From IMG/VR virus record IMGVR_UViG_3300009163_000136, positions 1 to 28,688 of that record: DNA of 28,688 nt. One strand, given 5' to 3'. Made by a program: the position numbers and the translations under genes. A model generated the notes under the pieces. It had not been told where the DNA came from. It did no database searches and saw only the letters and a program-made list of their open reading frames with translations. The DNA is from a virus. Position 1 is the first letter of the stretch; each line of letters starts with the position of its first letter. Below, one piece after another: positions 1 to 4,508 of this stretch.

Positions 1-886
1 TACGCTGCTTTTGGCACATTAGAAACATATCTGGCTGCTTCTCGTCATAGTCCTCATTGTTCCTGCGAGCGTTCTCCTTCTTCTTATTACGCCACACAAG
101 GAACACGTTATCAACCTGATCTGCAATGCTTCCAGAACCCTTTAAATCGGTCTTAGAAGGCTGTATCTCCTCAGACTGCAACTTGCGTATATGGTGGACT
201 AAATGAATGTGTACGTTATGGTCTCGTGCCAATGCACATAACTCGTCAACGAATGACTTTTGCTCGTTTAATGAGTCCTCTGCCACTACACACTTCATTA
301 ATGAGTCAATGAAGATATGCTTAATGCCTAGCTCAACAGCACAGTACCTTGCCATTGCTATAGTCTTTTGCGGAGTAGTGCTACCTTGCTGGTCGTAAAG
401 ATAGAGATTATCTTCCATGAAATTGGTAAACCTGCCAAGCAATTGACGTATGTATCCTTCCTTGTCATGCGTTAGCGGAACATTAATATTCTCACCAGCA
501 AACTGCCTAAGCATCCTGACAATGGTAGTTATAGGTTTCATTTCGTAACTAGCAATACATACCTTTAGGTTCTGTTTTATTAAACCTAACGCTATCTGCC
601 CTGTTACGAGAGACTTACCGCCTCCGTTAGAACCAGCATATACCGTAACTTCACCAAGCCTAAACTTAACGTCTGAGTGAGTCTTTGACCACGGCATAAC
701 AGCATCATCAGTTTTTTCAGGATCAACGTAATTCTGGTAAATGTCATCTAGCCAGCTTGTCGCTGATTTAACCTGTGCTGATAAATCATTATTCTTGAGA
801 TACTTCTCTACATCAATATCTTGAGACTTGATGATATGACGATCTTCGTAAAGTCGTTCCGCTATTGAAATAATATTATCCGACAT
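1..886 (-). CDS. Replicative DNA helicase, DnaB/T7 gp4-type (SF4), C-terminus cut off
   Basis: This is a RecA-fold, ring-type 5'-3' helicase for phage DNA replication. The start is the ATG at 886 and the gene runs off the left edge after 295 codons. Visible motifs are Walker A GSNGGGKS (residues 85-92), Walker B HIFIDS (190-195, Asp194), the sensor-like segment HIHLVHHIRK (226-235) and DLKGSGSIADQVDNVF (about 248-263), which is typical of DnaB/Twinkle/T7 gp4 helicases. Only about 80 residues precede Walker A, so there is no fused primase domain. Its start overlaps the end of the CHC2 zinc-finger gene by 11 bases, which argues for coupled translation and joint function. The family assignment is firm. 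Whether it is closer to DnaB or to T7 gp4 cannot be settled from the truncated part. Confidence 0.9.
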   Translation of the reverse strand, partial: MSDNIISIAERLYEDRHIIKSQDIDVEKYLKNNDLSAQVKSATSWLDDIYQNYVDPEKTDDAVMPWSKTHSDVKFRLGEVTVYAGSNGGGKSLVTGQIALGLIKQNLKVCIASYEMKPITTIVRMLRQFAGENINVPLTHDKEGYIRQLLGRFTNFMEDNLYLYDQQGSTTPQKTIAMARYCAVELGIKHIFIDSLMKCVVAEDSLNEQKSFVDELCALARDHNVHIHLVHHIRKLQSEEIQPSKTDLKGSGSIADQVDNVFLVWRNKKKENARRNNEDYDEKQPDMFLMCQKQR

Positions 887-1286
887 ACTTAACTGCCTCC
901 ATTATCCTAGAAGTTGCTACTTTCATTCTGTCTCTATCGGTATCAGATAATTTCTTACCTGTGCTCATAGTATGTGCTGCTACTGATATTACCCATGCCT
1001 CAAATTCAATAACGCGAAGCAAGTCTGAAGCATAATACTTTCTTTTGACTTGAGGCAAGTCTTTCTTTGTGTCTGGAAATAAATCGCCTATCTCCATTCC
1101 GATAGAACCAATGATGTCCTGAACGCTACAGTCTGCAAAGCATTTCAATAGGATACGACCATCCTCTAATTCTCTTATCGCTAAGGATGGACTCTTATCG
1201 CTATGAGCAGGACAGCAAGCCGTATAAGCTCCGTTACGACCTTTAACTTTCTCTAAACGGCTGAGTATGTTCTCTATCATTTCCAC
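876..1286 (-). CDS. Stand-alone primase-type CHC2 zinc-binding protein
   Basis: This 136-residue protein carries a CHC2-type zinc site of the kind at the N-terminus of DnaG and T7 gp4 primases: Cys25-x2-His28, then Cys49 and Cys53 in the segment KCFADC. The spacing and the preceding CPAHSDKSPSLAI block fit the family. The zinc module reads single-stranded template for primer synthesis. The rest (about 80-136) is a basic and helical tail. No TOPRIM catalytic domain is present here or in the neighbouring helicase N-terminus, so this is at most half a primase. It overlaps the DUF1376 gene by 10 bases upstream and the helicase by 11 bases downstream. It may recruit host DnaG or act as a helicase accessory factor; that role is inference. 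Confidence 0.8.
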   Translation of the reverse strand: MEMIENILSRLEKVKGRNGAYTACCPAHSDKSPSLAIRELEDGRILLKCFADCSVQDIIGSIGMEIGDLFPDTKKDLPQVKRKYYASDLLRVIEFEAWVISVAAHTMSTGKKLSDTDRDRMKVATSRIMEAVKYVG

Positions 1287-1909
1287 CCCATCAATGGTTT
1301 TTGAGTAGTTCCAGCTATTTCATCTTCCCATCGTTTAGCGTTAAGCCAAGTAGCCGCATGAGGAATAAACTGTTGTTCTCGTTCAGATAACTTTTGATCT
1401 TTAACAGCTTTTGTGATTTTTGCAATGAGATCATCGTTAGGATTAATCTTTATCCAAGCCTTTTTAGCATTTTCTTTAGCTGTCTTTTTTGGATAGACTT
1501 TCCAAAATGTCTCAAACTGATCGATAGATATATGGTTAATGGTTATTGGTTCTTGGTTACTGGTTGGTTGAACGTCCGTTGAACGTCCGTTAATCCTCCG
1601 TTCAGCAGATGCTCTACCAGCCCTAGATGCTTGCTCAACTTTGGCTTTGTAATGCTCAATTTCTTTATCTGCCCTACGATTAATGTATCCACCATCAATG
1701 TGGTCAAAGAACTCGGTTAGGACTAAATCTACTTCAGATTCATACTCACGCATGTTGATCTGTCGTGCAACGGTTGTTAAACAGTCGCTCAACGGACGTT
1801 CATGTAGATAATAAATATCAAGCAATCTGCGGTAAGCGATATCTTCTATGGGATTTAAATGGCGTGTATGTGTTGCGTAATCGCCAATATGGAATTGGTA
1901 GTAGTGCAT
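1277..1909 (-). CDS. DUF1376 (YdaU-type) phage replication protein
   Basis: This 210-residue protein begins MHYYQFHIGDYATHTRHLNP, followed by EDIAYRRLLDIYYLHERPL, the hallmark of DUF1376 proteins found in phage replication modules. Residues 1-95 form the conserved helical domain. Residues 96-128 are a polar linker rich in N, Q, S and T. The C-terminal part (FWKVYPKKTAKENAKKAW, later HAATWLNAKRWEDE) matches the replication-initiator tail seen in phage O/GP18-like proteins. By analogy it probably recognises the origin and helps load the helicase encoded two genes downstream. The start is supported by a GAGGTAA ribosome site a few bases upstream. The linker-coding DNA is unusual: it holds iteron-like repeats, described separately. 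Confidence 0.8.
   Translation of the reverse strand: MHYYQFHIGDYATHTRHLNPIEDIAYRRLLDIYYLHERPLSDCLTTVARQINMREYESEVDLVLTEFFDHIDGGYINRRADKEIEHYKAKVEQASRAGRASAERRINGRSTDVQPTSNQEPITINHISIDQFETFWKVYPKKTAKENAKKAWIKINPNDDLIAKITKAVKDQKLSEREQQFIPHAATWLNAKRWEDEIAGTTQKPLMGWK
1534..1591. repeat. Iteron-like tandem repeats inside the DUF1376 gene (candidate origin)
   Basis: On the plus strand four 7-base units begin with GGTT (GGTTAAT, GGTTATT, GGTTCTT, GGTTACT at 1534-1561). Two further GGTT units follow, then two perfect 11-base direct repeats GAACGTCCGTT at 1570-1580 and 1581-1591. Neither 7 nor 11 is a multiple of three, so the copies are read in different frames (NGR in one 11-mer, TDV in the other). 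That suggests selection on DNA rather than on protein. The adjacent 1381-1500 is about 31 percent G+C (37 of 120 counted). The arrangement resembles lambda ori, where iterons and an AT-rich stretch lie inside the O gene. Origin function is inference. Confidence 0.6.
1791..1801. repeat. Inverted copy of the 11-base iteron
   Basis: AACGGACGTTC here is the exact reverse complement of the two GAACGTCCGTT direct repeats at 1570-1591. It lies in the N-terminal coding part of the same DUF1376 gene, about 200 bases away in opposite orientation, as expected for a second binding site of an origin or regulatory protein. Confidence 0.5.
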
Positions 1910-1934
1910 ATTTACCTCACGTTATCGGTAGTCG

Positions 1935-1997
1935 TTACAAAATAGGTGGTATGGCAGGACGGTAACGAATCGTCTTTTCGGGAGCTACCCTAGCCAT
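1935..1997 (-). CDS. Possible 20-residue peptide
   Basis: A 20-codon ORF encodes a basic, proline-containing peptide starting MARVAPEKTI and ending in PPIL. It is preceded by an AGAGGA element about ten bases upstream of the ATG. It lies in the gap between the tiny zinc-ribbon ORF and the DUF1376 gene, on the same strand. No family is recognised. It may be a real short gene, a translational leader or chance. Confidence 0.25.
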   Translation of the reverse strand: MARVAPEKTIRYRPAIPPIL

Positions 1998-2016
1998 TCC
2001 GGTGAATCCTCTAGGA

Positions 2017-2115
2017 CTATATCGTAACTTTTCTTTTGCTGCAAGTCCTACAAATATCAGAGTTTCTAAATTGAATTGCTGAACGTGAATGTTTACAAAT
2101 AGGACACTTTTGCAT
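2017..2115 (-). CDS. Tiny zinc-ribbon-like protein (32 residues)
   Basis: The ORF has two CxxC pairs, CPIC (residues 4-7) and CRTC (22-25), spaced as in a zinc ribbon or knuckle, and a basic C-terminus SKRKV. Its ATG lies seven bases after the stop of the upstream winged-helix-like gene on the same strand, so re-initiation could drive it, although no clear ribosome site is seen. The paired cysteines in such a short ORF are unlikely by chance. A nucleic-acid-binding role is plausible but unproven. Confidence 0.45.
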   Translation of the reverse strand: MQKCPICKHSRSAIQFRNSDICRTCSKRKVTI

Positions 2116-2122
2116 AGAGAAG

Positions 2123-2503
2123 TTATAAATCGTTTTCTCTTTTGTAACGGACGTTGGACTTACAGGTTTTAAAGGTGTGTCTTTCAATTACTTGTCCTCT
2201 TGGGCTTACTGTTCGTGGAAATGTTTGCAACGGCTTAAATGGCACAGGTTCTCTAGGCTGGACTAGATTAACTTCATCGTTAATAAGTGCTGGTCTATCC
2301 CTATAGGCAGGAAAGAATACATCACCTTCCATCTTAAAGCACTTTAACCTGACTAATTTCCTAAGCTCTACCGTTATATCCCAATCATTAGCAAACCCCA
2401 TCATTCCGTACTTTTGTATTATCTCTTTGACAGTAATACCGCCGGAATTGTTAACAATATCAATAAATTCAGCCCTACGGCTACCTATTCTTGGTACGTA
2501 CAT
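2123..2503 (-). CDS. Winged-helix-like hypothetical protein, first gene of the replication operon
   Basis: This is a 126-residue basic protein. Residues 8-60 (RRAEFIDIVNNSGGITVKEI, then a segment containing ELRKLVRLKCFKMEGDVFFP) read like a winged helix-turn-helix: a helix pair followed by a short beta wing. The rest is proline-rich and basic without a recognised domain. It is the first gene leftward from the divergent control region, so a DNA-binding regulator or replication accessory role is reasonable. I do not recognise a named family. The ribosome site is weak. The assigned start is the first ATG after the intergenic region. Confidence 0.6.
   Translation of the reverse strand: MYVPRIGSRRAEFIDIVNNSGGITVKEIIQKYGMMGFANDWDITVELRKLVRLKCFKMEGDVFFPAYRDRPALINDEVNLVQPREPVPFKPLQTFPRTVSPRGQVIERHTFKTCKSNVRYKRENDL
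2146..2155. repeat. Fourth copy (10-base core) of the iteron
   Basis: AACGGACGTT, matching ten of the eleven bases of the iteron, sits in the last codons of the winged-helix-like gene. With the copies at 1570, 1581 and 1791 this makes four occurrences of a 10-mer within about 590 bases. I found no other copy by eye in the window. Confidence 0.45.
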
Positions 2504-3589: not shown

Positions 3590-4252
3590 ATGAATAACGA
3601 CTATCAATTGCAAGAGCAGCACGAACAGCAACAATGGCTTGTATATAGCAAGCTACAGAAAGCCAGAGTTCTACTACAAGAACAGCCATTAAAAAAGTCA
3701 GGCTTTAACTCATTCGCCGGATTTAAATACTTTGAACTGGCAGACTTCCTTCCTAGCATTAACGTCATCTTTGATAATCTAGGTCTATGCTCAGTCTTTA
3801 GCATTAGCGAAGGTGAAGCTACCCTGCGTATTTACGACTCAGAGTTCGGTGGTGCTATTTATTTCAGTAGTCCTACCGCAGAGGCTGGAGCAGGCAAAGC
3901 ACCTCCCATACAGGCTCTAGGATCGATGCACACCTACTTGCGTAGATACCTAATGCTGAATGCCCTAGAGATAACTGAGCATGACGCTGTAGACGCTACG
4001 ATCAAGAAAGACGAGCCTAAGTCAGCCAAGCCTATTACCGTAGATGTATTCGACAAAATGGACGCAAAGACTCAGGAACTGCTTGAGGATATTGCTATGG
4101 ATGTGCGTATGCTATTGCAAAAAAACGACATTCAAGGAGCCATTGATTACATCACGTTACAAGAGTTTGACGCAGACTCTAAGACAGCATTTTGGAGTAG
4201 GTTAGAGCCTAGTGAACGCAGCACAATTAAGAAATTTTCAACAGGGAAATAA
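3590..4252 (+). CDS. ERF-family single-strand annealing protein
   Basis: A 220-residue protein of the ERF superfamily, which anneals complementary single strands in phage recombination. The diagnostic block runs from FAGFKYFELADFLPSINVIF (about residues 43-62), through the TLRIYDSE region, to GAGKAPPIQALGSMHTYLRR (about 100-119), ending near ITEHDAVDA. Residues 135-220 form a less conserved acidic-helical tail that may bind partners. The next gene, one base downstream, encodes an SSB-like protein, so the two probably form an annealing pair. No exonuclease partner is seen in the window. Confidence 0.85.
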   Translation: MNNDYQLQEQHEQQQWLVYSKLQKARVLLQEQPLKKSGFNSFAGFKYFELADFLPSINVIFDNLGLCSVFSISEGEATLRIYDSEFGGAIYFSSPTAEAGAGKAPPIQALGSMHTYLRRYLMLNALEITEHDAVDATIKKDEPKSAKPITVDVFDKMDAKTQELLEDIAMDVRMLLQKNDIQGAIDYITLQEFDADSKTAFWSRLEPSERSTIKKFSTGK

Positions 4253-4253
4253 T

Positions 4254-4508
4254 ATGACTGAATACGATAATACAGACCGTGGAGTGCTATACCGAAATGA
4301 GAATAAAACGAGTGAAAACCATCCAGACTATTCAGGTAGCATCAATGTATCTGGTACAGATTTCTGGCTTTCTGGTTGGCTTAAAGAATCCAAGAAGGAC
4401 GGTAAAAAGTTCTTTAGCTTATCGGTACGCCCAAAGAATGATGCAGCGTCTAAGCCGGTAAATAAGCCTGTTAAAACGGCTGATCCTGACGATATTATTC
4501 CATTTTGA
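4254..4508 (+). CDS. Small SSB-like single-strand DNA-binding partner
   Basis: The preferred start is the ATG at 4254, one base after the ERF stop, giving 84 residues; an upstream in-frame ATG at 4212 lies inside ERF. The core (NENKTSENHPDYSGSINVSG then DFWLSGWLKESKKDGKKFFS) is a short beta-rich fold seen in phage proteins next to recombinases. The C-terminus DPDDIIPF matches the acidic DxIPF tip that bacterial SSB proteins use to recruit partners. I infer an SSB-like or SSB-mimic function. Confidence 0.65.
   Translation: MTEYDNTDRGVLYRNENKTSENHPDYSGSINVSGTDFWLSGWLKESKKDGKKFFSLSVRPKNDAASKPVNKPVKTADPDDIIPF

Follow-up and report, generated by a model that had tools for sequence, protein, structure and literature searches.

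Replication origins that lie inside the genes of their own initiators are already known. In phage lambda, ori sits in gene O and is made up of four 18-bp iterons with dyad symmetry and a 39-bp AT-rich region (PMC6022878). The Stx phages P27 and 933W have a lambdoid origin with iterons in the initiator gene, like the one proposed here, and the function of their iterons has been tested by synonymous mutation (PMC7466680), and in Francisella phage KIRK iterons and an AT-rich region have been predicted within a replication gene (PMC7924643). Our analysis of a virus record of 28,688 bases (positions 1-28,688 of IMG/VR record IMGVR_UViG_3300009163_000136, hereafter the window), and of about 230 relatives across all sets, argues strongly that a repeat element in the linker of a DUF1376 gene is a phage replication origin within the gene of its own initiator, in the manner of lambda O. 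The initial annotation of this DNA had proposed an origin from repeats at this place; the repeats themselves are confirmed and the reading as an origin is supported. If right, it would give a function to the DUF1376 family, which is mentioned only in passing in the literature searched and is still labelled 'unknown function', and would predict the origin of replication in many phages and prophages, both of Proteobacteria and of some other groups.

The DUF1376 gene occupies positions 1277-1909 on the minus strand and encodes a proposed replication initiator of 210 amino acids, which according to Pfam, PHROG and AlphaFold2 consists of an N-domain (aa 1-108, winged-helix-like), a disordered linker (about aa 110-127) and a helical C-domain (about aa 125-202). 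The N-terminal domain matches PF07120 (DUF1376) along the entire profile (positions 1-86 of 86, E=8.1e-23), the protein matches PHROG 9327 ('primosomal protein', E=7e-48), and its C-terminal half matches PHROG 270 ('replication initiation protein'). In the AlphaFold2 model the N-domain (pLDDT 94, pTM 0.81) is predicted to combine helices with a short hairpin and a long helix, arranged in winged-helix-like order, and the stretch predicted to be disordered, aa 110-127, is the linker encoded by the repeats. The N-domain showed no homology to lambda O: DUF1376 was the sole Pfam family matched by the window protein, sequence searches of the PDB with this protein gave no significant match, and neither did a fold search of the PDB with Foldseek (best E 0.25), where many of the top matches were winged-helix proteins.

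The genes that follow belong to the replication machinery. The next one, a zinc-ribbon (CHC2-like) primase fragment (876-1286, minus strand), matches PF01807 just under the cut-off (E=2e-5) and PHROG 6088 (DNA primase), and after it comes a DnaB-type replicative helicase (1-886, minus strand; PF03796, DnaB_C, E=1e-15; PHROG 239) truncated by the contig end. Relatives also have a helicase-loader gene adjacent, either DnaC-like (IstB/DnaC fold, in L204, L207, L276 and Pseudomonas phage MR13) or lambda-P-like (in L215 and, weakly, in L260). The order in MR13, cI-cro-DUF1376-DnaC-like loader-ninB-ninG, is syntenic with lambda, and the lambda O/ori-like layout that the initial annotation saw in the window holds across the family as N-domain, linker repeats, AT-rich DNA, C-domain and helicase or loader genes. 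Two labels in the MR13 record look wrong, 'putative antirepressor' for gp61, the DUF1376 gene, and 'putative globin' for gp62, the DnaC-like loader after it (L360 2498-4100 spans both). As for the surroundings in the window, the zinc-ribbon primase gene carries a perfect 12-base direct repeat, CTCTTATCGCTA, with 20-base spacing (1172-1203); the gene upstream of DUF1376 (2123-2503, minus strand), with no Pfam or PHROG match, looks like that of a small DNA-binding protein; and an ERF single-strand annealing protein and, after it, a single-strand-binding protein (3590-4505, plus strand) make up a recombination module that diverges from the replication genes.

The two perfect 11-base repeats first reported in the linker-coding part are real. 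GAACGTCCGTT occurs exactly at 1570-1580, 1581-1591 and 1791-1801 (minus strand) and with one mismatch at 2146-2156, which makes four matches where 0.13 are expected, a number that none of 100 shuffles got to. Its dyad form, AACGNNCGTT, has only four copies in the 28.7 kb (at 1571, 1582, 1791 and 2146), and the pattern, AACG-NN-CGTT, is its own inverse; the 11-mer is near-palindromic. Two clusters of 11-mers can be recognized, a duality that had been overlooked: cluster I (1769-1801, minus strand) lies in the N-domain coding region and comprises GAACGTCCGTT, GAGCGACTGTT and TAACAACCGTT, and cluster II (1571-1603, minus strand) lies in the linker and comprises GAACGGAGGAT (degenerate), TAACGGACGTT and CAACGGACGTT. 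Cluster II provides direct repeats with dyad symmetry between the two domains of the initiator gene, an arrangement kept in relatives, and its 11-bp spacing bears out the earlier observation that successive 11-mers are read in different frames. The copy at 1791-1801, previously described as inverted, is indeed an exact match and the first unit of cluster I; since AACG-NN-CGTT is its own inverse, however, the orientation means little. The isolated copy in the upstream gene (2146-2155) is present as described and in L005, L007 and L021, but is probably incidental, because it has been lost by substitution in the close relatives L004, L006, L019 and L020.

Directly after cluster II, and entering AT-rich DNA, lies an array of 7-mers (1531-1565, minus strand) that we propose as the opening element. 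The GGTTNNT units of the initial annotation number five rather than four and read AACCANN on the coding strand: AACCAGT (1559-1565), AACCAAG (1552-1558), AACCAAT (1545-1551), AACCATT (1538-1544) and AACCATA (1531-1537). It had also been missed that, of the two repeats, the 7-mers are the more widespread. The AT-rich flank (1381-1530, about 31-32% G+C) extends from the array into C-domain coding DNA, with a G+C content of 30.8% at 1381-1500, in agreement with the figure of about 31% given earlier, and 32.3% at 1381-1569, versus 39.3% for the DUF1376 gene.

The repetition is kept at the DNA level, with the synonymous sites of the linker nearly frozen across the roughly 230 relatives. In a first set of 80 DUF1376 relatives from viral contigs, whose genes were read, the linker codons ACC, CCA, AAC, ATA, TCA and ACG are all or nearly all one synonym, unlike most columns of the N- and C-domains. 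In 48 distinct genes (effective number 15), the linker uses a single synonym at most codons, and the codons of the N-domain are mostly close to background. In genes with unrelated C-domains, the linker DNA CGTTCAACGGACGTTCAACCAACCAATAACCATAAACCAATAACC is kept almost letter for letter, and the variation in amino acids, N[QH][EKQ]P[IL]T[INKS]N, corresponds to what is possible for an AACCANN array in three frames. The initial annotation had named, as the outcome that would count against it, relatives keeping the amino-acid linker rather than the bases; what relatives keep is the bases, and not the amino acids alone, the synonymous codons of the linker being near-invariant.

An unbiased gene set was assembled from named bacterial genomes and viral contigs with a profile limited to the first 92 residues, so that the linker played no part in the selection. 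At least three AACC at 7-bp spacing are present in 55 of 75 viral genes and 26 of 80 genome genes, versus 7% and 2.5%, respectively, after synonymous codon shuffling. Autocorrelation in these N-terminus-fetched genes shows a clear excess over codon-shuffled controls only at lags 7, 14, 21, 11 and 22, and the positional profile places lag 11 at nucleotides 105-150 and 300-345 of the gene and lag 7 at 345-405, that is, in the order 11-mer, 11-mer, 7-mer. The periodicity also exceeds codon-shuffled controls in divergent genes: among 50 with N-domain identity below 70%, lag-11 identity before the 7-mers is 0.464 versus 0.343 shuffled (p=6.7e-9; raised in 47 of the 50), and in the N-domain cluster 0.345 versus 0.292 (p=6e-5; 34 of the 50), with neighbouring lags and control regions flat or showing weak marginal differences only. 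These codon tests largely refute the explanation that the repeats are a low-complexity protein linker, or a product of slippage, without DNA function. The linker is rich in N, Q, P and T and predicted to be disordered, as a mere protein spacer might be, but neither 7 nor 11 is divisible by three, codons are fixed much more strongly than in the codon-shuffled null, and slippage would not preserve a constant AACC while two N positions vary, so that we give this explanation hardly any credence.

A blind scan with the DNA pattern (AACCANN)4AACC across all IMG/VR contigs returned at least 80 loci, and 79 of the 80 loci listed lie in DUF1376-type linkers, all on the sense strand; a single degenerate pattern thus finds the origin-like element with almost no false matches among the loci listed. 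Three matches appeared to be antisense, of which two proved to be sense in DUF1376 genes and the third (L126) an unrelated simple repeat. The array is unique in the window and in the four isolated phages considered (Methylophilaceae P19250A, Thalassomonas BA3, Moraxella Mcat18, bases 1-49,999, and Pseudomonas MR13). The 7-mers were present in all six isolated phages examined, most weakly in Vibrio ValSw3-3 (p=0.09), and clear 11-bp repeats were seen by inspection in Mcat18, P19250A and MR13, with lag 11 significant in Mcat18 and MR13. More generally, the linker repeat element recurs in phages of many bacteria. The AT fraction on and after the 7-mers is 0.64-0.69 versus a gene mean of 0.55 in viral contigs, and 0.53-0.58 versus 0.46 in genomes; the AT peak across relatives covers the array and the next 20 nucleotides, and duplex stability is minimal at the 7-mers. 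The constant sense orientation of the array could also be expected if the element worked in mRNA and not in DNA, for example as a protein- or sRNA-binding AACCANN tract. Nevertheless, an origin predicts this polarity equally well, and near-palindromic 11-mers at helical-turn spacing next to an AT-rich flank of low stability indicate duplex DNA, which makes a role in mRNA very improbable.

Some genome loci have 6-bp instead of 7-bp repeats, and a few lack a clear array. Linker repeats of 6 bp (ACACCA or AACCAG) replace the 7-mer tract in L209, L210, L217, L226, L248 and L280 (Comamonas, Delftia, Rhodoferax, a Betaproteobacteria MAG, Pseudoduganella and Massilia, in that order). The first four of these lineages (L209, L210, L217 and L226) suggest that the exact step is less important than the presence of an unstable repeated tract.

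The sequence of the 11-mers, for its part, varies with the N-domain group: AACGNNCGTT, AACCCANNNNT, GCGAACGCATT, GTGACGCACCT or GTGCACGAAGC, with GCGAACGCA repeats next to the L024-type N-domain and AACCCA repeats next to the L035-type. The 11-bp period is nonetheless raised in every N-domain group of at least four genes (lag-11 match 0.40-0.66, where most other lags give about 0.15-0.33), with a further peak at lag 12 in one group. Natural domain swaps show that the 11-mers go with the N-domain and not with the C-domain: L024 and L035 have nearly the C-domain of the window and a different N-domain with different 11-mers, and L020 has the N-domain and 11-mers of the window joined to an unrelated C-domain. 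The genes are mosaics in general (L024, L035, L044 and L050 compared with window 1277-1909), their domains having been reshuffled both ways with the junction at the repeat-bearing linker. Sharing of 6-mers among the 11-mers is about 0.05 at 45-50% N-domain identity and 0.21-0.24 at 60-70%, regardless of the C-domain, and the observed partial correlation was equalled or exceeded by none of 200 Mantel permutations for the N-domain and by 3 of 200 for the weaker C-domain effect. Cluster I, moreover, shares 8.55 6-mers with the linker of its own gene, versus 4.54 with linkers of other N-types and 4.87 after codon shuffling, and control regions have no such sharing with their own linker.

Part of the N-domain effect may reflect physical linkage, as the 11-mers adjoin this domain, and domain and motif are not strictly paired, with the AACGNNCGTT type recurring in several N-domain groups; co-inheritance consequently supports, and does not prove, recognition of the 11-mers by the N-domain. 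Covariation between N-domain residues and 11-mer class was considered as a sign of contacts and rejected: its best signals fell at residues 91-95, attributable to linkage, and at residues 48-52, which are not readable as contacts because they fall within or next to the codons that make up the N-domain 11-mer cluster. Joining of unlike domains might suggest that the linker is kept simply as a recombination junction for N- and C-domain swapping, given that at this point unrelated C-domains are found with similar N-domains, and similar C-domains with dissimilar N-domains. Recombination by itself, though, produces neither periods of 7 and 11 bp nor 11-mers specific to the N-domain, and the swapping is better read as a consequence of the origin staying with its initiator; we regard a junction as the reason for the repeats as very unlikely. 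The same swaps of N-domain and 11-mers against unrelated C-domains make the co-evolution of initiator and origin testable.

For the linker element as an origin, a mechanism can be envisaged in which the DUF1376 N-domain would bind the near-palindromic 11-mers, whose linker units are about one helical turn apart, and also those of cluster I, a second cluster about 200 bp away in the N-domain coding region. Such binding is suggested by co-inheritance and by the predicted winged-helix-like fold. The initiator would have its sites in the 11-mers, where the DNA is richer in G+C, and the adjacent AT-rich 7-bp array would be the site of strand opening, so that replication would start here; the C-domain, variable among phages, would bring in the helicase or loader whose gene lies immediately downstream. 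The two clusters of 11-mers, about 200 bp apart, resemble protein sites with dyad symmetry and would suit looping repression, in which DUF1376 would bind within its own gene and so block or tune the transcription of the replication operon, with the origin elsewhere. An operator of this kind is improbable, however, as the sites are well within the gene and away from the promoter, a repressor has no need of an AT-rich 7-mer array of fixed polarity, and the arrangement remains constant while downstream genes change. Cumulative GC skew, which the initial annotation had put forward as a check on the origin, gave no consistent support: in the window it is almost monotonic and tracks gene direction, and of four isolated phages only two have their minimum within about 1.5 kb of the DUF1376 gene.

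How the strands open is the clear question raised by the 7-mers. As a tentative and somewhat doubtful extension, the array could be a shared strand-opening or loading element, bound as single strand in 7-nucleotide steps, with a role comparable to that of DnaA-trios and common to many N-domains and to unrelated C-domains and loaders (DnaB/primase, DnaC-like, P-like); only 11-mer and N-domain would then be matched to each other, in a modular origin system.

In the literature searched, mostly journals open without subscription, we found no two-period (11+7) origin in DUF1376 genes. The Rac prophage of Escherichia coli K-12 has a reported origin, oriJ, which is little mapped and whose map position we did not find in the open literature. 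Its YdaU is encoded by a DUF1376 gene followed by ydaV, and the linker has AACAGGTGTT and AACAGATGTT, akin to AACGNNCGTT; it differs from the present locus in having no 7-mer array and a repeat spacing of about 11-12. In ydaU (L358 5120-5977) a lag-23 repeat is above the codon-shuffled control, and these linker repeats are a candidate for oriJ. The putative origin of KIRK, a prediction from a single genome, lies in a gene that belongs to Phg_2220_C and not to DUF1376, with no 11+7 architecture reported, and the Stx phages have six longer iterons whose sequences are unrelated to the DUF1376 11- and 7-mers. Lambda shares with the layout proposed for the window an origin in the initiator gene, with dyad direct repeats and then AT-rich DNA (PMC6022878), a helicase-loader gene next to it and, as DUF1376 has in MR13, a place between the lysogeny and nin genes. 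The differences are that lambda has four 18-bp iterons, whereas here the units are of 11 bp, often in two clusters, with a tandem 7-bp array, and that P is replaced in the window by a primase fragment and a DnaB helicase. We propose that the DUF1376 system works like lambda O/ori without belonging to the lambda O protein family.
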